64,000 nucleotides of DNA from Oscillospiraceae bacterium. GTDB lineage: Bacteria > Bacillota > Clostridia > Oscillospirales > Acutalibacteraceae. The translations under genes and the position numbers were made by a program. The stretch is from assembly GCA_009785335.1 (NCBI GenBank), contig WQWM01000001.1:124001-188000 (forward strand), in the 5' to 3' direction. Every line of letters starts with the position of its first letter. Position 1 is the first letter of the stretch. Positions 8,223-23,572 of this stretch are shown piece by piece. The notes beneath the pieces were generated by a model. It saw only the letters and a list, made by a program, of their open reading frames with translations. It did not search any database and was not told the DNA's origin.

Positions 8223-11200
8223 CTATGCGCAGTTTTCCAGATACCAGCAGAACAACGTGCCTGCCAGCCGGCCGCCTGCAAACATCAGCAGCGGCACGGC
8301 AATGCCAAGCATAACACCTGCCATAATCACCAGGAACGTGCGCCACCAATTGTTGTTATTGTTGTTGCCGGGCGCTTCTTCCCACGCGGCGTAAACGGTC
8401 AGGTAGCTATCATCGGTTCCATCGGTCGCAGCGGCAATAGACGCAGGGTTGCGCGGCGTGCTATCCAGTGCCCAAACTTCGGTGGAATTGGTGACAATCA
8501 CAGTACTGCCGCCTACATTCACATACCAATGCAGGAAGACATGACCCGGGCGAGTGGCTGCAGGCACCGCAAAGTTGTGGGTATAGGTTGCGCTGCGGCT
8601 GGTGGTAGGCGTGCCCTCACCGGTGATGCTGCCGCCCGTGGCATCAAACAGCACGGTATAAATGCGCACAAACTGTGCCACTAAGGGGTCAGTGTTCTGC
8701 AACACGCTGGTGGATTGCAGCATGGTTTCGCCATCTTGTGACCAACCCACGAAGTGCCAGTTGGTGCCGATATCCGCAGGTGGGGGCAACGCACCAATGG
8801 GAGCGCCGATGGTCACATAGCCGTGCGTGCCGTAGCTTTCGCCATCAGCAATCAGTTCAATGCGGAAGGGGGCTTCATCCCACTGGGCGGTGAGCGTGGC
8901 ATTGGCCGTGCCCATGGTGACTACTTCACCTTCCAGCGTCGTGCCTGCACCGGTGATGATCCAGCCGGTGAATACGTAGCCGATGCGGGTTGGGCTGCCG
9001 CCAAGGTTGAATTGCTCACCCCAGCGCAGAGGCTCGGTAGGACCAACCACGCCCGTGCCGCCTTCAAGGTCAACGGTTAGCGTGAAAGCGCGGCGCACAT
9101 AGCGCAACACAAGCACCGTGGAGCCATCTGCGGCAATGGTGCTGCTGAGCAAATTGCCCGCATAGTCAGCGTCAAACACGTAATTTGCGTCATCGAAGAA
9201 GCCGGGAAATGCCTCAACCAATACGCCGGTTGTGCCGCCAATGAAGTTGGTCACTATCGGGTCGGCAAAGGTGCCATCAGCATTCTCCAGTATCACATGC
9301 ACTGCCCAGACGGTATCATTGCGCGGGGTGAAGCGTGCCAAGAATGTCGCTGCAATGCCGGGGTAGGCAATGGCGGGGTCAATGTTGGTGTGGTCTACAA
9401 TGGTGGCAGCGGTAATTTGCATGCCGCCTTCTGCTGCGGTAAACCAGCCGTTGAAGTCATAGCCCTGGCGGTTGAGTGCTGCGGGCAAGGTGAAGTTTTC
9501 GCCAAAGGTAACGGTGAATGCTTCATATGTGCCATCAGCCAACTCAAATTGCACGCTGTAAGAACTGGCCTGCCAAATGGCAAAGAATTGTGTGGGAATT
9601 GAAGGATCTGCAAGTGTGGCTTCGCTCAACAATGCTGCGGTGACTACGCTAGCGGCGGTGACCCAGTCACCTTCTCCGTCGGCTTGAGTGTTCCAGCCCA
9701 GCAAAGTGTGGCCGGTGCGCTGCACATTGGCGGGCACAGGCAAGGCATCATCAATTTGCACCTGTGCGGTCACGTCAGCGGTGCTGCCGTCAATGTTGCC
9801 GCCGCCGAGCACAAACTGTACATTATACTGCCCATCATAAAGCCACAGCGCATAAACCGAAGTGGGTGTTGACGGGTTTTGCAGACTAAGTTCGCTGAGC
9901 ATGGCAAGGGTGAGCGGTTGGCCAGGTGTGACCGCAATGCCGCCGCCATTGGGTGCGGTGAACCAGCCGCCAAAAGTGAAGGCAGTGCGAGGTTGCAGGT
10001 CGGGTTCGGGCACATCGGCACCCAGCAACACGTCAAACTGCGTATCGCCTGCAATCGTGCCGCCCATGGGATTGAACACCAAGGTGAAGGTGTCGGGGCT
10101 CCATTGGGCATAGAGGGTTTGGTCGGCGGCCACATTCCAGATGGTGGTTGCATCCACCGCATCTCCGCCTGCGTTGTGCCATGCGTCAAACACATGTCCC
10201 GCGCGGGTAGCCGTGGGCAATGTACCAACGGCCTGCTCAAACGTCACCGTGCGTTGGAACACAGGCAGGTGCGAGCCGTAGTTCAGGTTGGTGTATAGGC
10301 GGAACTGATTGGGTGCCCAGGTGGCCGTTACTGTGGTGTTAACAGTCGCCATGGTCACTGTGCTGCCCACCACGCTTGCGCCGTCGTCCTGGCCAACGGT
10401 AATTTGCCAGCCGCTAAAGGCGTAGCCGGGTTTTGTGGGCGTGCCGACGAGCGTGTGAATCTGTCCCCAGCGTAGTGGTTCGCTGGGTGAAGCAACGCCA
10501 GAGCCGCCATCTAAATCAACGGTGAGGGCGACGGTGTTGCGCAAATAATGCACAACCAACACAGTGGTACCATTGGCCGCGATATCGCCGTTGAGCACAT
10601 TTGATGCATTTGCGCTGTCGAAAGTATATAATGCTGCGTCAGGCGAGGTGTAAGTTGCATCGGCAATGGTGATGGCTGCGCCGGTTGTGCCGGTTTGCGG
10701 CACGGTGCCTGCGTGGCTAAAGTTGCCATCGGCGTTTTGTGTGTAAACACGCAGGTTCCAGGCGGTGTCGTTGCGCGCAGTCCATTGCGCGTAGATCGTT
10801 ACATTGCCATTGACGGCCAAGGTGGTGGCATGGTCAACTGCCGTGCCGCCTTCAGATGCCGTGAACCAGCCTTCAAAGCTGTAACCCGCACGGCTGAGCG
10901 TAGGCAGCACATCATAGGCTTGCCCAAACGCCACGGAACGCAGGAATACATCCGTAGCATCGCCGTGGTTGACGTGGGTATATAGGCGGTGCACGTTGGG
11001 CGTCCAGCGGGCAGTGACAACGGTGTTCACTTGACCAACGGTGACTACATTGCCCACCACAATGGCACCCTCGGTTTGGCCGGTGGTGATTTCCCAGCGG
11101 TCAAAGATGAAACCGTAGCGTGCTGGCGTGCCGGTGAGGGTATATTGGCTGCCCCAGCGCATGGCGTCGCTTGGTGAATCAACGCCTGTGCCGCCTGCCA

Positions 11201-14200
11201 GTTCAACCGTGAGAGTGACCGTATTGCGCACATAGTGCACACGCAGCACGGTGGAGCCATCTGCTGCAATGGTGCCGCTGAGCAAATTGAGCGCATGACT
11301 AGGGTTGAAGGTATACAATGCCGCGTTGGGCGAGGTATAGGTTGCGTCAACAATGGCAATGGCTGCGCCGGTGGTGCCGGTTTGCGACACAGTGCCTGCG
11401 TAACTGAATGTGCCATTCGCGTTTTGCGTGTAAATGCGCACAGCCCAGGCCGTGTTGGTGTTGGGCGCCCAGCGGGCATAGAACGTAGCCGCTGCCGTGG
11501 GCGGTAATATAGCCGGATCAATGGTGGTGGCGTTCACCGGGGTTGCGGTGGTGATGCGCGTGCCGCCGCTGTCTTCGTCCGTGTCATACCAGCCCACAAA
11601 GTTGTAGCCCGTACGCAGGGGTTCGGCGGGCAGCACCATAGTACCATTAAAGGTCACTGTGGTGTTTTGCGCGGCAGGCGCGCCGCCGTTTGCGTCAAAG
11701 GCAACGGTATAACTGCGCGCCGTCCACACCGCAGTGGCAGTGGTGGCTGCCGTGCCCATTACCACGGTGTTGGTGCCGCTGAGCGATGCGTTTTCGCCTG
11801 TTACCGTCCAGTGGCTGAAGATGAAGCCAACACGGGTGGGCGTTTGCGGGATGATATATTGCGTACCCCATGCTTGAGTTACACTGAGCACATCAACGCC
11901 GGTGCCGCCTGCTAGGTCAATGGTGAGCGTAAACATGCGGCGAGCATAGTGCAGGCGCAGCACGGTAGTGCCATCGCCGGCGATAACGCCCGTGGGTGAA
12001 TGATTGTCGTGGCCTGTGTCCAGCACATACCAGTCCGGGTTGGGCGAAGTGTATTCGCCTGCAGCCGACACCGCGCTGGCCGTTTCGCCTTGGCGTTCAA
12101 TTACATTTTGCACCGTAAAGTTGCCGCTGGCATCTTGACGGTAGATATGGATGGCCCAATTGGTGTCGGTGCGGGGCACCCAAATGGCGTAGATAACCAA
12201 GTTGCCATTATGAGCGAGCTCGGTGTCTTCGTCCACCACATAGCCATCGTAAGTGCGCCACTCCACAAAATCCCAGCCTGCGCGTGACGGATTAGCGGGC
12301 ATCACACTGCCCACAGCTTGCCCAAAGGTGATGGCACCCGCGTCCACATAGTCATGCTCGCCATAGTTGAGATGGGTCATCAGGCGATGTTGGTTCGCAC
12401 TCCACTGCGCAATGGCGTGGGTCGCTGCCGTGCCCATGGTGATGGTGGTCATCGTAGCACTTGCGCCCGCTGGGGTTACATTCCAGCCGGTGAAAGTGTA
12501 GCCGTAGCGCGTGGGTTCGCCGCCCAAGTCATACACATAGCCCCAACGCAGTTCATTCGCGGGCTCAGTCACGCCCGTGCCGCCAGCCAAATCAAGGGTG
12601 AGCGGGAAAGTGCGGCGGGCGTAGTGCACAACCAGCACACTGCTGCCATTGGCTGCGATGTTGCCGGTGACAATATTGTCATCATGCGTGCTATTAAATA
12701 CATAGCGTGCTGAATCGGGCACGGTGTAGTTGCCCGCTGGAGTGATGGCCGCGCCGGTGGTGCCGGTGCGCAGTGCATCCTGCGTGCGGGTGAACGTGCC
12801 ATTGACGTTTTGCGTATATACATGCATGCGCCATTCGGTGTCGTCACGCGGTATCCAGCGCGCATAGATGGTAACATTGCCATCCACGGCAAGTGTGGTC
12901 GCATCGGTAACCAGAAGGCCGCCGCTGGTGCGCCAGTCACCAAAGTTGTAGCCGGTGCGCGTGGGATCTGAGATTGTGTCGATCCCCAGAGACTGCCCAA
13001 ATGTGACATTGTGCCGGAACACAGGTTCATGGGTGCCGTAGTCTAGGTTGGTGTAGAGGCGGTGTGTGTTTGGTGTATAATGCGCATACAGCGTGATATC
13101 ACCGTCAACGTTGTGCACAGAGGTAGCCGAAGCCGCATCACCTGTTGTGCTGCCGATTCGCCATTGCCCAAAGGTGTGCCCGGTGGGTGGAGTTGGTTCG
13201 GGCAATGTGCCGAATTCATCAGCAAAGCGGCTGGGACGATCGGCAGGCGTAACACTGCCGCCACCTGCATTAAAGTTCAAGTTGTGCATGTTGCCCAACC
13301 AGCGAGCATACAGCGTGTGGTCAACCATGTTGGTCACGGGGTCAATATTTTGCCGTTGCGTGCCAGCGGTAGGCGCAGTCCACCAGCCCTGAAAACCAAA
13401 ACCGGTGCGCGTTGGCGTGGGCAAGTTATGCTCTGCGCCTTCGTTGCGGTCAACGAAAGTTGGTGTGACAGTGCCGCTTTGGGGATTGAGCGTGATGCGC
13501 ACAGGGGTTTCCACATAGCGGAAGCTCACCGTGCGGCCTGCGGTAATGTGACTTTGCCAACTCGCCACGGGCAGGTTACCTTCAGCGTCGGCATAGATGG
13601 TTTGCAGCCAAGTGTCACCTGCTTGATTGAAAATCGCCACAGCATGCAGCCGGTGGCCAGGAATGACCAGCGGGGTAGCTGTTACATAGTCACCCGTGCG
13701 CACGTCATCAAGGCGTGTTCTGGCTTCGCCCGGCCACGGGCCGTTGGTGAACTGCACGTAGTCGTTCATCAACGCTAGCGTGTCTTGGTTACGGAACTCC
13801 ACAATTACGTTGCCCGCCACTGTGCGATAGTTGCGTGCAGCGCGACGCGCGGCACCGCCAAACTCTACATTCCAACCCGCAAAATTGGTGTGCGGCACGC
13901 CAAGGCGCAAGGTGTTGTGGCGCAAGCGAGCATAATTATCGCCGCTATAGGCCGGACGCACAAAATTGTCGATCGATTGCCAATAATTCCACCAATATGC
14001 AGAACTTGCGTTGCGGTAGGTCGTGGTGTCGCGCCAGTTGATGTTAATGCGGCCGCGCATGCGAATTTGACTGCCGCCGCCCGCCCCGCGAGAAAAAACA
14101 TTTGCAGTGAAATAGTTGCGATTGGTAGATAACATATGCGTGGTGCCCGAAGTAGCTCCGGGGGTATAAGTACCTGCACCGAGACCAGTGCCTGCAGCGG

Positions 14201-15482
14201 TGCCTGCTGCACCACGTCCCCAGCGAAATACTGCATCCGCTTGCCGTGGGTCAGGCGAGTTTGCGCCACCGTAATAAGCATAGCGCCTTTGCGACGGCAC
14301 GTTATCGTTATTCCAGTCGATAATCACGCGGGCATCTGCATTTCCGGCTACTTCCACTTGCTTGTAGCCCAACACTAGATCTGGAATCGCGTGTGCTGTT
14401 TGGGCAGTGGCCAGATTAGCAACGGGTGTAAAGCGTTCGCCACGCGGGCTTAGACCAACAGCAGCAGGAGCTCGAAAACGCTCATTAACCGTGATTGTGC
14501 CCCAAACACTGTTGGTTGTGCCCATCCAAATTTCATTGTTGGCGTTATTTCTGTTGCCAATATTGCCGTGAATGCGACCGCCTAGGTCAGGGTAGTTAGC
14601 GGCACCGGCTAAGTAAGGTCCGGCCATGCCAGCACCAAAAGCAGCTTGACCATCATAAAGACGACCTGACTGACTGGCAATACCACGAATCCAGTCAAAG
14701 GGTAGGTGGTTAGTGTGACGATGCGGTTCTGCATGCTGGTTCCCGGGACCAACCACGCCAACAAAGCCACCTTCATCGTAAAAACGACCGCCTATTGTGT
14801 GCAACCCAACAAAGGCCATAGTGCCGCGGCCACGATCGCCGCCTATCCAGTTGCCCAGCGATGTGCCGCCGGCCATGAGTGAGCGCCCCCACACAATGGA
14901 ATAAGCCTGAATGGTGTGCCCGGGCACGCCATCTAAGTCAAACGTAGCCGTCCAGCGCATCAGATCGTAGCTGCGGCTATATAGACCAAGCGCAGTGATA
15001 TACCCACCAGTGAGCTGCCACTCGCGGTCAAGATGCGTAGGAGTGTTCACGCGGTTAGTGTATGTTTGCGTGAAACCCGCTAGGCCGCCTGTGCCGCCGC
15101 TGCGCCCGCCAAGATTGTACATCTGCGTGCTGATGACAATGTTGGTGACGCGGGCGGGAGATGTGGTTTGAAAACGCACGCGGGCAAATGGCTCGGTGTG
15201 GGCAACACTGTCGTCATAAGCACCTGCGCCGAAGTTCGAGTTCGTCCACTCGCGCACAGCAGTTTGCCGCCCAGCCATGGTTTCATGATTGGTCATGTCT
15301 GGCTGCAGCCACAGGGTTTCGGGCACCTGCAACGCCACATGCGGCGGCGCAAGCGAGGTAATCACATCAGCCGTGGCGGGTGTAACCACTGTTGGGCTGG
15401 CTGTGGCACCAATGGCTAGCATGCTCGCTAGCACGGCGATAGCCAGAAGCACGCTAAGCATGCGGCGTAATGATTTCTTCAT
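8223..15482 (-). CDS. Giant secreted repeat protein (2419 aa) with many InlB/Listeria-Bacteroides-type repeats and five copies of an interspersed MucBP-like module
   Basis: Signal peptide MKKSLRRMLSVLLAIAVLASMLAIGATA; recurring GYxFxGW...TLYAxW repeats and DTxWxxxxYTQNxxGxF modules; C-terminal TM segment. Confidence 0.85.
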   Translation of the reverse strand: MKKSLRRMLSVLLAIAVLASMLAIGATASPTVVTPATADVITSLAPPHVALQVPETLWLQPDMTNHETMAGRQTAVREWTNSNFGAGAYDDSVAHTEPFARVRFQTTSPARVTNIVISTQMYNLGGRSGGTGGLAGFTQTYTNRVNTPTHLDREWQLTGGYITALGLYSRSYDLMRWTATFDLDGVPGHTIQAYSIVWGRSLMAGGTSLGNWIGGDRGRGTMAFVGLHTIGGRFYDEGGFVGVVGPGNQHAEPHRHTNHLPFDWIRGIASQSGRLYDGQAAFGAGMAGPYLAGAANYPDLGGRIHGNIGNRNNANNEIWMGTTNSVWGTITVNERFRAPAAVGLSPRGERFTPVANLATAQTAHAIPDLVLGYKQVEVAGNADARVIIDWNNDNVPSQRRYAYYGGANSPDPRQADAVFRWGRGAAGTAAGTGLGAGTYTPGATSGTTHMLSTNRNYFTANVFSRGAGGGSQIRMRGRININWRDTTTYRNASSAYWWNYWQSIDNFVRPAYSGDNYARLRHNTLRLGVPHTNFAGWNVEFGGAARRAARNYRTVAGNVIVEFRNQDTLALMNDYVQFTNGPWPGEARTRLDDVRTGDYVTATPLVIPGHRLHAVAIFNQAGDTWLQTIYADAEGNLPVASWQSHITAGRTVSFRYVETPVRITLNPQSGTVTPTFVDRNEGAEHNLPTPTRTGFGFQGWWTAPTAGTQRQNIDPVTNMVDHTLYARWLGNMHNLNFNAGGGSVTPADRPSRFADEFGTLPEPTPPTGHTFGQWRIGSTTGDAASATSVHNVDGDITLYAHYTPNTHRLYTNLDYGTHEPVFRHNVTFGQSLGIDTISDPTRTGYNFGDWRTSGGLLVTDATTLAVDGNVTIYARWIPRDDTEWRMHVYTQNVNGTFTRTQDALRTGTTGAAITPAGNYTVPDSARYVFNSTHDDNIVTGNIAANGSSVLVVHYARRTFPLTLDLAGGTGVTEPANELRWGYVYDLGGEPTRYGYTFTGWNVTPAGASATMTTITMGTAATHAIAQWSANQHRLMTHLNYGEHDYVDAGAITFGQAVGSVMPANPSRAGWDFVEWRTYDGYVVDEDTELAHNGNLVIYAIWVPRTDTNWAIHIYRQDASGNFTVQNVIERQGETASAVSAAGEYTSPNPDWYVLDTGHDNHSPTGVIAGDGTTVLRLHYARRMFTLTIDLAGGTGVDVLSVTQAWGTQYIIPQTPTRVGFIFSHWTVTGENASLSGTNTVVMGTAATTATAVWTARSYTVAFDANGGAPAAQNTTVTFNGTMVLPAEPLRTGYNFVGWYDTDEDSGGTRITTATPVNATTIDPAILPPTAAATFYARWAPNTNTAWAVRIYTQNANGTFSYAGTVSQTGTTGAAIAIVDATYTSPNAALYTFNPSHALNLLSGTIAADGSTVLRVHYVRNTVTLTVELAGGTGVDSPSDAMRWGSQYTLTGTPARYGFIFDRWEITTGQTEGAIVVGNVVTVGQVNTVVTARWTPNVHRLYTHVNHGDATDVFLRSVAFGQAYDVLPTLSRAGYSFEGWFTASEGGTAVDHATTLAVNGNVTIYAQWTARNDTAWNLRVYTQNADGNFSHAGTVPQTGTTGAAITIADATYTSPDAALYTFDSANASNVLNGDIAANGTTVLVVHYLRNTVALTVDLDGGSGVASPSEPLRWGQIHTLVGTPTKPGYAFSGWQITVGQDDGASVVGSTVTMATVNTTVTATWAPNQFRLYTNLNYGSHLPVFQRTVTFEQAVGTLPTATRAGHVFDAWHNAGGDAVDATTIWNVAADQTLYAQWSPDTFTLVFNPMGGTIAGDTQFDVLLGADVPEPDLQPRTAFTFGGWFTAPNGGGIAVTPGQPLTLAMLSELSLQNPSTPTSVYALWLYDGQYNVQFVLGGGNIDGSTADVTAQVQIDDALPVPANVQRTGHTLLGWNTQADGEGDWVTAASVVTAALLSEATLADPSIPTQFFAIWQASSYSVQFELADGTYEAFTVTFGENFTLPAALNRQGYDFNGWFTAAEGGMQITAATIVDHTNIDPAIAYPGIAATFLARFTPRNDTVWAVHVILENADGTFADPIVTNFIGGTTGVLVEAFPGFFDDANYVFDADYAGNLLSSTIAADGSTVLVLRYVRRAFTLTVDLEGGTGVVGPTEPLRWGEQFNLGGSPTRIGYVFTGWIITGAGTTLEGEVVTMGTANATLTAQWDEAPFRIELIADGESYGTHGYVTIGAPIGALPPPADIGTNWHFVGWSQDGETMLQSTSVLQNTDPLVAQFVRIYTVLFDATGGSITGEGTPTTSRSATYTHNFAVPAATRPGHVFLHWYVNVGGSTVIVTNSTEVWALDSTPRNPASIAAATDGTDDSYLTVYAAWEEAPGNNNNNNWWRTFLVIMAGVMLGIAVPLLMFAGGRLAGTLFCWYLENCA

Positions 15483-17194: not shown

Positions 17195-18046
17195 CTAACC
17201 TTTCGCTGCCAGTTTTCGTTTCATGCGCGATTTATACCCAAGCAACAACGCCAGCTGCGCATCGTTCATTTGTGCCTGCCCCACGGTCGCTGTGCCATAC
17301 ATCCCACGGAAATCGCTGCCGCCAGTCACCAACATACCCGCTGCTTTGGCGATACCAAGCAGTTGCTTTTGCGTGTCGCGGCTATTTGCCGGGTGCAACA
17401 CCTCAATGCCGTCAAGACCTGCGGCAATCAGCTCGTCAAGTATATCTAGGGCACAGGCATTTTCGCCAGGATGCGCCAACACCGCAATGCCGCCCGCCTG
17501 ATGAATGGCCTGCAATACCTCTTGCGGCGAGGAAAATATTGCGGGAGATAGTATATTATCGCGGCTTTGGGGGTCAAACAGCTTGTGATAAAACTCGCCG
17601 CAAAGCTGGTCAGTCAATCCGCTTTCCGCCAGTGCGCGCATCAAATGCTGGGGATACACACAGGTGCTGCCCTTTGCGCATTCTTTCACCAGCTCAAGGC
17701 TCACGGGGAACCGTCGCAGAAACTTGGCCACAATGGATTGCATCGACTGTTTTCGTGCAATGATGTTTTGGTGACACAAACCCTCCAGCCGTGTGGGATT
17801 GTCCGCAAGATAGCACAGCAAATGCAGTTCACAGCCATCGGCAGTTGAGCAAGAAATCTCCACGCCGTGTAGCACCGCAATGCCGTGACGTTCACCCAGC
17901 ATGCGCGCACGCACGGTGCCTGCCATGCAATCTTGGTCAACGATGGCAAGGTGAGTAATCCCCTGCGCTTTGGCTAGCGCAAGCAAATCGTCAATGCCCA
18001 TGGAGCCCATGGAAAGCCGTGTGTGACAATGTAAGTCGCCGGCCAT
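17195..18046 (-). CDS. PHP-domain phosphoesterase
   Basis: DLHCHTRLSMGSMG, AIVDQD, VLAHPGE motifs; TTGCAA-17-TATAAT upstream. Confidence 0.9.
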   Translation of the reverse strand: MAGDLHCHTRLSMGSMGIDDLLALAKAQGITHLAIVDQDCMAGTVRARMLGERHGIAVLHGVEISCSTADGCELHLLCYLADNPTRLEGLCHQNIIARKQSMQSIVAKFLRRFPVSLELVKECAKGSTCVYPQHLMRALAESGLTDQLCGEFYHKLFDPQSRDNILSPAIFSSPQEVLQAIHQAGGIAVLAHPGENACALDILDELIAAGLDGIEVLHPANSRDTQKQLLGIAKAAGMLVTGGSDFRGMYGTATVGQAQMNDAQLALLLGYKSRMKRKLAAKG

Positions 18047-18128: not shown

Positions 18129-19454
18129 TCAATTTAACATGTTTCGCTGATGGTATTCACATATACGCCACTTCAAGCCTTTATATTGCTGCCATTCGCC
18201 GGTTTTCACCAAGTTCCAATCAGGGTGATTATCCAAGTTCGGAAAGAACGTATCAGCTTGTTCTGCGGTAACTTCCACTTGGGTTATCATGGCTTTTTTG
18301 CACTGCGGCAGCAACATTTCATAAACCACTCCCCCGCCTGCAACGAACACCTTGCCCAGCGATTTTGCTTTGGCCACGGCTTCGTCAAGCGTGTGGCAAA
18401 CATGCACATGCCTGCCACGCGGCTTGAAATTCGTGTTACGCGTTATCACCACAATTTTGCGCCCAGACAACGCAGGAATGCCGGATGATGACTTGGGCAG
18501 GCTGTCATAGGTTTTGCGGCCCATCAGCACAACATGGTCTATGGTGGTGTGCTTAAAGTGCGCCAAGTCGCCGGGGATGTTAAACAGCAGTTCGCCCTCG
18601 TTGCCAATGGCCCAGTTTTGGTCCAGGCAGGCAATGGCGGTGAGGGGGGCTTTTTTACGCCGCCTTTTTCGCCGCCAATCTCGCAAAAATTGAAACAAAA
18701 TAAATGAGACATAAAGCAAAAGCAAATGAATATTATCCCGCGCCCACACCTGTGCACGCCAAAGAAAGCTTGGCATTTCAACAGCAAAAAATTCTGTTGC
18801 GAAATAAGCATCCGCATACAAAAAGCCTTCAACGCTTAGTTCATCCAGCAGGGCAAAAAAGTTCACGCGCACTTCGTCGTATGTAGTTCCCCGCATTATA
18901 TGTGTGCGAAAATTATCGTTGCGCGGCAGCAGCGAAATGGGAAAGGTGTCGCGCAGACGTTCAAATTCTGCAAAGCTAACTGCGTGATCGCCAAAATAAC
19001 GAACATGACGGGTGCGCCCAGAGCGCCGCTCATATACTTCCCAGCCAAACAGGCGTTGGGTGGTGAACGTGAGGTTGTCCCAGTCCACAATGTATTCGTC
19101 CACATGCCAGTTACGAAAGCGCAGCATACGCAATTCGTTGGTTTTCGGGTCTAATGTAGGGGGAAATAGAGGAAAGTTTTCATCTATACTGTAGCGCAAC
19201 TGACCATCTATCACCGTAGCAATCAAAGGAGATTCACCCGGCAGCAATAACTCCGGCACGCCATCGTTATTCATGTCCAGCAGCACTATTCTTGGCGGTG
19301 TTCGCCTGGCTGTATGTATTGGCTCTGCCACCTGCCAGTAAACCTGCCAATATTGCTCCTGCCAAGCGGGTGGCTCGTCCTCCTGCGCAACAGCAAAGAA
19401 CGCATAGCCGCCCAGCAACGCAAGCACAGCAAGTAATATCGCGAATTTCTTCAT
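18129..19454 (-). CDS. Membrane-anchored fusion: N-terminal extracytoplasmic domain + TM + C-terminal dihydrofolate reductase
   Basis: MKKFAILLAVLALLGGYAFF signal anchor; LLDMNNDGVPELLL; TM NIHLLLLYVSFILFQFLRDWRRKRRRKK; DHFR motifs AIACLDQNWAIGNEGELLFNIPGDLAHFKHTT, VLMGRKTYDSLP, VFVAGGGVVYEMLL. Confidence 0.88.
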   Translation of the reverse strand: MKKFAILLAVLALLGGYAFFAVAQEDEPPAWQEQYWQVYWQVAEPIHTARRTPPRIVLLDMNNDGVPELLLPGESPLIATVIDGQLRYSIDENFPLFPPTLDPKTNELRMLRFRNWHVDEYIVDWDNLTFTTQRLFGWEVYERRSGRTRHVRYFGDHAVSFAEFERLRDTFPISLLPRNDNFRTHIMRGTTYDEVRVNFFALLDELSVEGFLYADAYFATEFFAVEMPSFLWRAQVWARDNIHLLLLYVSFILFQFLRDWRRKRRRKKAPLTAIACLDQNWAIGNEGELLFNIPGDLAHFKHTTIDHVVLMGRKTYDSLPKSSSGIPALSGRKIVVITRNTNFKPRGRHVHVCHTLDEAVAKAKSLGKVFVAGGGVVYEMLLPQCKKAMITQVEVTAEQADTFFPNLDNHPDWNLVKTGEWQQYKGLKWRICEYHQRNMLN

Positions 19455-19456
19455 GC

Positions 19457-20179
19457 TCACTCCTCTTTTTCTTTGGGCAGCAATGCCCACACCAGCACAT
19501 AACCACCCAAACACATCGCCGCAAAAATCAGACTCAGCCGCAGGGCGTTGCCATCCATTGCACTGAAAATCTCCCCGAGGGTATGCAGCGGGCGGGTGAA
19601 TAAATCCCAACTGTTCAGGCGCAACGCACCGCGACCCATCCAAATTGCCCAGCCTGATAGCAGCGATGTGACCAACACCAGCAGCCAACTCCATAGCGTG
19701 CCGAGCCGCCGCGCAACCTGCCGTTGCAGCATCGCAAGCGAAACAAAGCCGAACAACACGCCCATGCCCACACCCGCGATCATCAGCAGCAGCGAAAACC
19801 ACGCAGCGGGGTCGGTGGTGAAGAGGAAAACCCACTGGTTATTTCGGCTTGCAACAAAGTTGACGTCGTTCAAGTGCAGCAGGCTGGTGAGCAGATATGG
19901 CGCGTTGGGGTAAAATAGCAACCACAGCGGCCAGCAGATCCACCCCAGCACGCGCCGCACGCGTTTGGGGGAATCCGCACCGCGAAGCACGCCGCAGGCA
20001 AACACCAGCGGCAGCCATGCGAGGAACATATTCCAGGGCATCCACCCCCAGCCATAGCGAAAGCTGGTGGCGAACAGCACAATTTGCAGCAATGCGGTGC
20101 CGACACCCAGCACGATGAATATGCGGGCGAACTCGCGCGGCAGCCACGCGGGATGCAGGGTGATGAGGTGGTTTTTCAT
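19457..20179 (-). CDS. DUF1361-like multi-pass membrane protein
   Basis: WNMFLAWLPLVFA...WLLFYPNAPYLLTSLLHL. Confidence 0.75.
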   Translation of the reverse strand: MKNHLITLHPAWLPREFARIFIVLGVGTALLQIVLFATSFRYGWGWMPWNMFLAWLPLVFACGVLRGADSPKRVRRVLGWICWPLWLLFYPNAPYLLTSLLHLNDVNFVASRNNQWVFLFTTDPAAWFSLLLMIAGVGMGVLFGFVSLAMLQRQVARRLGTLWSWLLVLVTSLLSGWAIWMGRGALRLNSWDLFTRPLHTLGEIFSAMDGNALRLSLIFAAMCLGGYVLVWALLPKEKEE

Positions 20180-20188
20180 GGGGACTCC

Positions 20189-20515
20189 TCAAAATTCGAT
20201 ATGATGGTAGGGGATGAATGCTCCAGTTAGACGCACACGATTGCCTTCCCACGTGATTTCTGGATGGCGAGCGATATCGTGCTGCGCATCGCGCTCTAAA
20301 AAGAAAACACGATGTCGCACCGGGTAAGCAATTTTGCTGCGTGTGCGTGGACCCGGTGCCCAACGCACAAACACTTGATGCTGCTCACAAGGGGAAACGT
20401 GAACTTCACCGTCCACAAAGAAAATGAACCGCACACCAAATGCATTCAATACTACAAAGACCAGCAACGGTATTAGCAGCCCCAGCATTGCCCAGCGTAG
20501 CTTTCTTTTCTTCAC
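20189..20515 (-). CDS. Small membrane-anchored hypothetical protein
   Basis: Single N-terminal TM, operon-like spacing. Confidence 0.6.
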   Translation of the reverse strand: MKKRKLRWAMLGLLIPLLVFVVLNAFGVRFIFFVDGEVHVSPCEQHQVFVRWAPGPRTRSKIAYPVRHRVFFLERDAQHDIARHPEITWEGNRVRLTGAFIPYHHIEF

Positions 20516-20519
20516 GCTA

Positions 20520-21188
20520 TCACCCCATCCCCATCAACTTCAGCGCCTGCGCGGCAGCAGCTTGCTCGGCGAGCTTTTTGCTGCGCCCACGCCCCACACC
20601 CAGCACATTGGAGTGCAGCCGCACCTCCACCACAAAGACTTTCTCATGGTCGGGCCCCTGCTCCTCCACCAGCACATACTCCACGGACTCAGATGGGTTT
20701 TGCTGCACGATTTGCTGGAGCTCGGTTTTGCTGTCGGCCATGGCAAACTTGCCCTGCTGCAAAAAGCGATGCACGAAGGTCTTGCAAGGCTCAATGCCGC
20801 CGTCGAGGAACATCGCAGCAAGCACGGCTTCAAAGGCATCTGCCACCATGCTGGGGCGATTGGCACCGCCAGTTGCAGCCTCGCCGCGACCAAGCCGAAG
20901 CGCACCGCCGAGGCCGATCTCCTGCGCATAGCCGAACAGCGCGGGCTCGCACACGGCAGCGGCACGCATCTTGGTGAGCTCGCCCTCGGTTTTGTCGGGA
21001 TGCTGTGTATGCAGCCATTCAGCCGCCACAAAGCCCAGCACGCTGTCGCCCAGGAACTCCAAGCGTTCGTTGCTACCATGCGCCAGCTTACGCTCGTTGG
21101 CATAGCTCGAGTGCGTCAACGCCCGCTCAAGCAGCTCAGGCTGGCGGAAGGTGTAGCCGATGTTTTGTTGCAGTTGGTTGAGTGTCAT
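20520..21188 (-). CDS. rnc: Ribonuclease III
   Basis: NERLEFLGDSVLG signature; C-terminal dsRBD. Confidence 0.95.
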   Translation of the reverse strand: MTLNQLQQNIGYTFRQPELLERALTHSSYANERKLAHGSNERLEFLGDSVLGFVAAEWLHTQHPDKTEGELTKMRAAAVCEPALFGYAQEIGLGGALRLGRGEAATGGANRPSMVADAFEAVLAAMFLDGGIEPCKTFVHRFLQQGKFAMADSKTELQQIVQQNPSESVEYVLVEEQGPDHEKVFVVEVRLHSNVLGVGRGRSKKLAEQAAAAQALKLMGMG

Positions 21189-21189
21189 G

Positions 21190-22398
21190 TTAATCCCTTT
21201 CTGGCGTGAGTAGGGTTTGCGTGGCGGGGCAATATAGCGCAACCACATGCGAGCCAAAGCCGCCACCATAAACAAAGCGGCTAATCAAAATAAAGTTGCC
21301 TGCACGCAGCAGATAGTCGCCGCCATTCATGCCACTATAACCACGAAAAGCTTCTTCGCCGACTGTGTTGCCGTTAGTATCTAGGCGATATAATATCAAT
21401 TCCCCGCCATCATAATCGTAAAAACCATATTCATCGCAGATGATGAACGCATACAAATGACCATTAACTTCCAATATATCACCCACATCATCGCGCAGCA
21501 ATGAACTTTGTGTGCCATCGGGACGATATCGATACAATTCGTGAGGCAACTCAAGCGCGTATACCCACCCGCCCACGGTCACTGTTCGTGGGTGCGGGTC
21601 AACTGACCATTCTTGCAGCACGCGATTATTTTCATCAATGCGTAGAGCTCCGCCAAAAGTTCGAAGCATCACACTGCCATCATCTAGGTTATGCCAAATG
21701 TGCGAATCCCACTCAAGCCCACCTTGCGCTGTGTGGATAACATGACGTTGCATTGTGTCAAACTCAAATGCCTCCATTTGCCACGAATCATTGCCAAACG
21801 CTGTGATCAATAACAGCGAATTGCTTGCCGCATTATACCAAATTTCAGTTGCCGCCCACCAAATGTCATCATTTATTCTCGCCCCCTGCGCAAGGCGTAT
21901 GCGTGAGCCATCGGATTGTATCAAATACAATGTATCATGGACTGGTCGCGCATCAAAATTGCGCACACGCACAAGCAAGCCCTGCGGCGTGATGCCCGCG
22001 ATAGTATCCCATTCCTCCAAATTTGTGCGCCGATTAATGTCATCTAGTGCAATTCTTGTGCCCGCCGTCCCCCATCTTCTTCCTGACATATAAAAATGCG
22101 TGGGCGACAACGCATAATGCGCAGCAAAACGATATCCCTCCCCGCGCGTGAATTCTCGCGGGAAGTTTTCGGAAAAAATCGTCCACTGCCCCAGAGGACT
22201 GAATGGCTGCGAGTCAGTTTCTTCCGCTGTTGTGGTTTCTTCTTCCAACGTTGTATAAACTTCCACGACAGTTTCGGCATCATCGCCAGTTTCATCAGGG
22301 CTGCGGTTGCCTAACATAGGCACAACCAGCAACGCAATCATCCCCAGCAACAGCACTGCAAGTGCCGCCGAAATAATCATAAGCACGCGTTTGTTCAT
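21190..22398 (-). CDS. Membrane-anchored secreted protein, paralog B of tandem pair
   Basis: MNKRVLMIISAALAVLLLGMIALLVVPMLGNRSPDETGDD..., nearly identical N-terminus to the next gene. Confidence 0.8.
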   Translation of the reverse strand: MNKRVLMIISAALAVLLLGMIALLVVPMLGNRSPDETGDDAETVVEVYTTLEEETTTAEETDSQPFSPLGQWTIFSENFPREFTRGEGYRFAAHYALSPTHFYMSGRRWGTAGTRIALDDINRRTNLEEWDTIAGITPQGLLVRVRNFDARPVHDTLYLIQSDGSRIRLAQGARINDDIWWAATEIWYNAASNSLLLITAFGNDSWQMEAFEFDTMQRHVIHTAQGGLEWDSHIWHNLDDGSVMLRTFGGALRIDENNRVLQEWSVDPHPRTVTVGGWVYALELPHELYRYRPDGTQSSLLRDDVGDILEVNGHLYAFIICDEYGFYDYDGGELILYRLDTNGNTVGEEAFRGYSGMNGGDYLLRAGNFILISRFVYGGGFGSHVVALYCPATQTLLTPERD

Positions 22399-22399
22399 G

Positions 22400-23572
22400 T
22401 TAATCCCTTTCTGGCGTGAGTAGGGTTTGCGTGGCGGGGCAGAACAATGCTTCAAAAGACAAGTTACGGCTTCCGTAGTAAAAACCATTGGCGATCATAT
22501 AAAACTCGCCCAAACGCCTCACGCCATGGCCATTGTTGTGTCCGAAGCCGCCACGCCAAATTTCGTTTTGTCCATCCAATGTGAAAATGGTAAACCCGCC
22601 ATCGCCGTCACCTTCATAGAATTCATCGTAAAACATGAATGGTCCAGCTTGCCACAAACGTCTTCCATCATGCTGAATCTCTTCGTGCGGAACATTGCCT
22701 AGTGGCAAGTCAACATCAAGCGCGCCAAAACGACGCATGCTCGTGCGGTTTTGTGCATCAATATGCATGACTTCGCTATCGTCATTTGTGCCCCAAAAGT
22801 CATAAATCACGCCCCCATCCGTCAAGTTAAGCCAGTGTGTAAAGTCAAACCACTCATACGGATACGTACTGCGTAACCGTTGCATAGAATTAGTGCGCAA
22901 GTTCAAGCCATGCAACTCGCGATTGCCATCACCAGAAAAGAATAGCAATGTGTTGCTCGCAGCATTCAGCCATGGGTCAAAAGCGTGATCCAGCACTATA
23001 CGTAGTTCATCTTGACCATGCGGCAAAAACCAAGTGCGTGCCACAAAATTCACCTCATCAGGGTCATCTGTCCAAAAGCCTAGGCTCGCCGCTAATATCA
23101 GCCCTCTATCCGTCACACCAACAATTCGCGGGTTTAACGTCCGGCCACTAAATTGTCTTGGCAAAATAATTTCTGTGCTGTTGCGAATATCGTTAATGTC
23201 TGCACGCAACAAAACGTTATCCACTAACCCATTGCCTTGCTCGTCCAAACCACGAAATGCAAAGCTGATACCATAAAAATATTGCGGTGTTGTTGCCCAC
23301 GTGGCTGTAAATACATAATCACCGCCAACGACAGCATTGCCTAACGCTACCCCATCATGCAGCTGCACTGGCACGTTGATTGGCGGGCGTGTGGTCGCTT
23401 CCGTCGTGGTTTCCTCTTCAGTTGTGGTGATAACCTCAGTAGTGGTTTCGACATCATCGCCGGTTTCGTCAGGGCTGCGCCCGCCTAGCATAGGCACAAC
23501 CAGCAACGCAATCATCCCCAGCAACAGCACTGCAAGTGCCGCCGCAATAATCATAAGCACGCGTTTGTTCAT
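22400..23572 (-). CDS. Membrane-anchored secreted protein, paralog A of tandem pair
   Basis: MNKRVLMIIAAALAVLLLGMIALLVVPMLGGRSPDETGDD, Thr/Glu linker, ends CPATQTLLTPERD like paralog B. Confidence 0.8.
   Translation of the reverse strand: MNKRVLMIIAAALAVLLLGMIALLVVPMLGGRSPDETGDDVETTTEVITTTEEETTTEATTRPPINVPVQLHDGVALGNAVVGGDYVFTATWATTPQYFYGISFAFRGLDEQGNGLVDNVLLRADINDIRNSTEIILPRQFSGRTLNPRIVGVTDRGLILAASLGFWTDDPDEVNFVARTWFLPHGQDELRIVLDHAFDPWLNAASNTLLFFSGDGNRELHGLNLRTNSMQRLRSTYPYEWFDFTHWLNLTDGGVIYDFWGTNDDSEVMHIDAQNRTSMRRFGALDVDLPLGNVPHEEIQHDGRRLWQAGPFMFYDEFYEGDGDGGFTIFTLDGQNEIWRGGFGHNNGHGVRRLGEFYMIANGFYYGSRNLSFEALFCPATQTLLTPERD

Follow-up and report, generated by a model that had tools for sequence, protein, structure and literature searches.

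A dihydrofolate reductase (DHFR) forms the C-terminal end of a putative membrane protein in an Oscillospiraceae bacterium, and this gene fusion is shared by two further species of the same genus. The fusion is the only DHFR found in the assembly of each of the three uncultured species. The sequence-only reading of the window (the whole 64,000-nucleotide stretch analyzed, from contig WQWM01000001.1) had proposed a membrane-tethered DHFR with an extracytoplasmic domain; sequence, conservation, and modeling support this proposal, while the tether itself is the part that we infer. The favored explanation, which is likely as a whole, is a real and conserved fusion that arose through gene overlap and a frameshift and whose DHFR works at the inner face of the membrane.

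Layout and conservation of the fusion gene

The fusion gene (18129..19454; all genes and protein features of the window described here lie on the minus strand) begins with an ATG at 19454-19452 and ends with a stop codon at 18131-18129. It contains zero internal stops, which bears out the single uninterrupted 441-aa frame of the earlier reading, and every motif listed there is present in the protein. A strong Shine-Dalgarno sequence (GAGGAG) precedes the ATG. The intact ORF and its full-length homologs in two other genomes (G010 and G002) share one order of parts, namely a signal peptide, an outer domain, a membrane helix, a basic tail, and the DHFR. The signal peptide (residues 1-23, 19386..19454) has its hydrophobic core at residues 4-22 (hydropathy 2.48), followed by AVA↓QE. 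An AxA↓Q site after the core recurs in 4/4 homologs and, by pattern only, marks the peptide as cleavable; the N-terminal hydrophobic segment, which had been described as a signal anchor, is present and reads as a signal peptide.

Upstream of the fusion, rnc for RNase III (20520..21194, assigned by Pfam and synteny), a 108-aa ORF from the ORF list (20189..20515), and a gene for a DUF1361 membrane protein (19457..20179, Pfam 3.6e-36) are spaced only a few bases from one another, and 2 nt separate the DUF1361 stop codon from the fusion ATG. A PHP-domain hydrolase (17195..18046, Pfam) lies downstream, and a pattern scan places a promoter-like site at 18116-18088 between the two genes. The DUF1361 and PHP neighbors are kept in G010 and G002, and the order rnc, small ORF, DUF1361, fusion, PHP hydrolase, and a 184-aa protein is common to these genomes and the window genome (G000). 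Elsewhere, the window encodes a secreted protein of 2419 aa (8223-15482) that contains 13 Listeria-Bacteroides repeats (Flg_new) along with a hydrophobic helix at its C-terminus, as well as two tandem paralogs with near-identical N-termini and Thr-rich linkers and without a Pfam match (21190-23572).

Conservation in relatives, a point raised by the sequence-only reading, is seen in 2 of the 13 other genomes of the genus, where the full-length fusion with the same in-frame joint is 55% (G010) and 44% (G002) identical to the window protein. Among the fusion species, identity amounts to 82-95% for the neighboring genes, 68-72% for the DHFR, and 32-45% for the outer domain, which in the window protein is 45% and 32% identical to those of the other two species. 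The dN/dS of ~0.2 shows purifying selection on the DHFR part. For the outer domain, dN/dS is ~0.33-0.37, a rough value as synonymous sites are near saturation. The fusion DHFRs form one clade (support 100/99) beside the other DHFRs of the genus, and by this phylogeny the fusion in the three species has one origin.

The DHFR domain and its folate context

The C-terminal DHFR (residues 271-438, 18141..18644) is complete, as had been claimed. A domain search of the full protein matches DHFR_1 (PF00186) to residues 271-422 with 128.6 bits against a cut-off of 25 (E 2.2e-37) and leaves the N-terminal part without a match. The equivalents of E. coli FolA D27, F31, T46, R57, G95, G96, Y100, and T113 are kept; the substitutions M20L and W22F are common to other DHFRs of the genus, and W22 is a Phe in several members. 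AlphaFold on the four homologs alone gave a pLDDT of 42, and the addition of DHFR-only relatives to the alignment then repaired the DHFR part (pLDDT 88-98). With this model, Foldseek retrieves DHFR crystal structures (best E 5.6e-17; target-normalized TM-score 0.80-0.93). Judged by its catalytic residues and fold, the domain looks active in the NADPH-dependent reduction of dihydrofolate. It shares fold, catalytic residues, and cofactor-site glycines with bacterial FolA and is closest to the DHFRs of the genus. FolA, however, is a free enzyme of 160 aa, whereas here the reductase is the C-terminal part of a putative membrane protein and has lost its start codon.

The search for another folA, which the earlier reading had suggested, yields none in the G000 assembly, and G000, G010, and G002 have one PF00186 match each in assemblies that are 90%, 86%, and 70% complete. 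A second, unassembled folA is possible in these three MAG-like incomplete assemblies. FolC scores above cut-off in all three genomes and FolP in G000 and G010, with a partial match in G002; as both enzymes are present, the folate pathway would therefore need the fusion DHFR.

The thymidylate synthase of the three species is ThyX, and no ThyA is found in G000, G010, or G002. Across the genus, the two enzymes are mutually exclusive (8 ThyX versus 6 ThyA). The fusion protein has no thymidylate synthase domain and is thus no bifunctional DHFR-thymidylate synthase. ThyX does not convert tetrahydrofolate to dihydrofolate. Organisms with ThyX do not need a high dihydrofolate-reducing capacity and still require some DHFR (PMC1971073). 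Because the fusion species use ThyX and not ThyA, little DHFR should be needed in them, and with ThyX in use, a DHFR of low copy number at the membrane is plausible. With ThyX easing the demand, the locus is a natural experiment on how much relocation and slowing a central enzyme tolerates.

Two genomes of the genus without the locus (G003 and G006) contain ThyA, FolP, and FolC, and a PF00186 DHFR was not found in them. ThyA normally demands a DHFR, and the gap may reflect either incompleteness or another reductase. At G004:C10:38057-39104, folA adjoins thyX with few bases between the genes.

Origin of the fusion and comparison with other DHFRs

In genome G008, folA follows rnc immediately, with zero genes between them. 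It is therefore probable that the fusion clade gained the DUF1361 and outer-domain genes by insertion between rnc and folA. Stand-alone DHFRs start with a Met at the position that matches residue 271. The codon at this ancestral start is CTC in G010 and in the window (Leu271, 18642..18644), and ATG is kept in G002, where the +1 frame ends in an overlapping TGA (ATGA). An ATGA overlap is a usual sign of translational coupling. The same overlap links a stand-alone paralog of the fusion's membrane part in G002 (L019) to a GNAT-like gene, and some genes of the secreted DxNxDG family described below abut or overlap the next gene. One gene of this family is frameshifted into its neighbor (G002:C99, see below), which hints at how the DHFR fusion came about. 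Among the relatives examined, no intermediate was found in which folA and its partner are still unfused and overlap by ATGA.

Along the route that we infer from these comparisons, the ancestral folA behind rnc would have come to lie immediately 3′ to a type I membrane protein gene, whose product comprised a signal peptide, a DxNxDG-type outer domain, a membrane helix, and a basic tail. The two genes were probably coupled in translation via the overlapping stop and start codons (ATGA), and a small frameshift (indel) would have joined them in frame. The signal peptide would then export the fusion protein until the helix and the basic tail stop the transfer, and the DHFR would fold at the cytoplasmic face of the membrane and yield tetrahydrofolate with NADPH. 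As ThyX would lower the demand for DHFR flux, one membrane-bound copy may suffice. The locus clearly illustrates a fusion with a probable origin in overlapping genes, with the ancestral start codon still visible in G002.

Textbooks treat DHFR as a soluble enzyme, and it is a drug target. Protozoal DHFR-TS is a natural soluble DHFR fusion. DHFRs occur in 12 of 14 genomes of the genus (three as the putative membrane fusion, the others as ordinary stand-alone enzymes), in 125 of 396 genomes of the order, and in 73 of 398 genomes of the phylum. The long DHFR frames that were fetched and read from order and phylum comprise DHFR-FolC, DHFR-GNAT, DHFR-Lar_N, FolK-DHFR, and non-coding extensions; one further frame carries a C-terminal endonuclease/phosphatase-like part, assigned by eye as a Pfam match is absent. 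Independent soluble DHFR fusions lie at L114, L117, L118, L120, L125, and L132-L136. As candidates for further membrane fusions, the long frames of other genera were rejected, those read being soluble fusions or spurious open frames. Like the fusion described here, the natural soluble ones link DHFR covalently to a second domain by gene fusion, but their partners are soluble and often folate enzymes, and a signal peptide with a membrane helix is present in none of those read from order and phylum.

Among ~200 DHFR-positive relatives sampled (long frames read), no other membrane-tethered DHFR was found. A search of the open-access literature, with subscription journals mostly outside its reach, likewise turned up no description of a bacterial DHFR that is naturally tethered to the membrane. 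The coupling of DHFR to a membrane receptor-like domain had been called unusual; what is unusual is the membrane part and not the fusion as such, given the FolK, FolC, GNAT, and lactate-racemase-like partners in order and phylum. DHFR fusions are already known; the putative membrane-protein partner and the status as the only copy found set this one apart.

Predicted membrane topology, outer domain, and alternative explanations

The predicted membrane helix (residues 242-258, 18681..18731) is followed by the basic tail RDWRRKRRRKK (residues 258-268, 18651..18683), which is predicted to be cytoplasmic. Both had been pointed out before, and the helix is of moderate strength (Kyte-Doolittle 1.41, octanol-scale sum -11.3). 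The AlphaFold helix spans residues 242-267 with a pLDDT of ~80-86 and leads almost straight into the first DHFR strand. In G010 and G002, Kyte-Doolittle values for the helix are weak, but it is well positioned ahead of a basic tail and scores favorably on the octanol scale owing to Trp. It is clear and strong in the stand-alone paralog L019, which has the same layout without the DHFR and ends in the tail RRKQRRAKRKEST. Within the tether model, the helix of the fusion is the least secure element. Taken together, sequence and model make a DHFR tethered to the membrane likely. Like type I receptor-enzymes, the protein would combine a signal peptide and an outer domain with a single helix, a basic inner side, and an enzyme inside, but its enzyme is a metabolic reductase and neither a kinase nor a cyclase, and a known sensor domain is absent.

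The presumed extracytoplasmic domain (residues 24-241, 18732..19385; ~215 residues) is, by alignment, distant kin of a multi-copy secreted DxNxDG family (alignment A3) that is without a Pfam name. The kinship concerns the first third, with a direct match of 3.7e-5 (47%) and an hhalign probability of 97.2% (E 3.2e-11) over 92 columns at the start of the alignment, which take in the signal peptide. The DxNxDG core is invariant in the family. In the fusion, the corresponding loop LLDMNNDGVPELLL (residues 58-71, 19242..19283) is a possible Ca2+ site, and its D60, N62, D64, G65, and L69 are invariant in the four homologs. The fusion and the A3 lipoproteins have the signal peptide and the N-terminal part with DxNxDGVxELxL in common; A3 members differ in being lipoproteins that lack a membrane helix and an enzyme, and neither homology past column 92 nor a lipobox Cys was found in the fusion. 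By these comparisons, the outer domain appears to be a fast-evolving outlier of the family. Much of its AlphaFold model stays below pLDDT 50, even with the DHFR-only rows added. Pfam, NCBIfam, and PDB searches match it to no named, ligand-binding, or sensor family, and a known sensor family is rejected on these grounds; the closest to a named domain is a sub-threshold FG-GAP match in one homolog only. The term receptor-like in the sequence-only reading is therefore not supported; a receptor role is possible, but only the topology and the conserved DxNxDG residues speak for it. In G000, G002, and G010 (L141, L142, and L143), a DxNxDG lipoprotein gene lies ~11 nt ahead of a downstream gene that is of one kind in all three genomes (MLVSPxDILLPAF..., aldolase-like by eye).

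The chance that a sequencing or assembly artifact links two genes is negligible. These assemblies do contain frameshifts that open a frame, as in G002:C99, where a DxNxDG lipoprotein gene is frameshifted into an overlapping PHP hydrolase gene and gives an open 470-aa frame (L159:2932-4345). This apparent secreted-PHP fusion is really a frameshift, as its true ending NLMQFNFISIERTTS is visible in the next frame, and it may stem from misassembly. The DHFR fusion, however, is joined in frame in the same way in three species that have diverged and were assembled separately, its ancestral start codon is replaced in two of them, and a stand-alone DHFR is absent. An assembly error is rejected because the frame stays open through large sequence change, and conservation in three species rules out both an assembly join and a chance open frame. 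A frameshift, an assembly join, or separate genes in relatives, which the earlier reading had set against itself, thus give way to an in-frame fusion with diverged outer domains. A use of the real frame in the manner of a bicistron, in which the full frame is seldom made and internal starts or proteolytic release supply soluble DHFR, is unlikely. The in-frame ATG at the ancestral DHFR start persists in G002, but as the codon is CTC in the window and G010, a separate soluble DHFR is unlikely in the window species. Moreover, other in-frame TTG/ATG codons near the junction lack a Shine-Dalgarno sequence, and no promoter-like site was picked up by the pattern scan in front of the DHFR part.

The weakness of the second hydrophobic stretch in G010 and G002 would fit a secretion of the entire protein, in which the helix does not stop the transfer and the external DHFR is non-enzymatic. 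This is very improbable, given the strong basic tail directly after the helix, an active site that is conserved though NADPH is absent outside, and a protein that is the sole DHFR found, alongside FolC and FolP. With the DHFR inside, an external ligand (Ca2+ via DxNxDG, or a surface ligand) might signal through the helix to DHFR activity, or the outer domain might site the DHFR beside a folate transporter or ThyX. The type I layout with a helix leading into the DHFR, the conserved fusion with invariant DxNxDG residues, and an outer domain that stays open in three species at the dN/dS given above speak for such a sensor. Its match to no known sensor or ligand-binding family, its low identity next to that of the neighboring genes, the lack of a transporter gene among the scanned neighbors, and the location of the ThyX gene elsewhere speak against it and leave it unlikely. 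A transmembrane sensor-enzyme, in which the outer domain governs or spatially channels the sole DHFR of the cell, has an outside chance at best; if true, it would couple one-carbon metabolism to an extracellular cue. Between signaling and a tolerated, now fixed accident, the accident is more likely.
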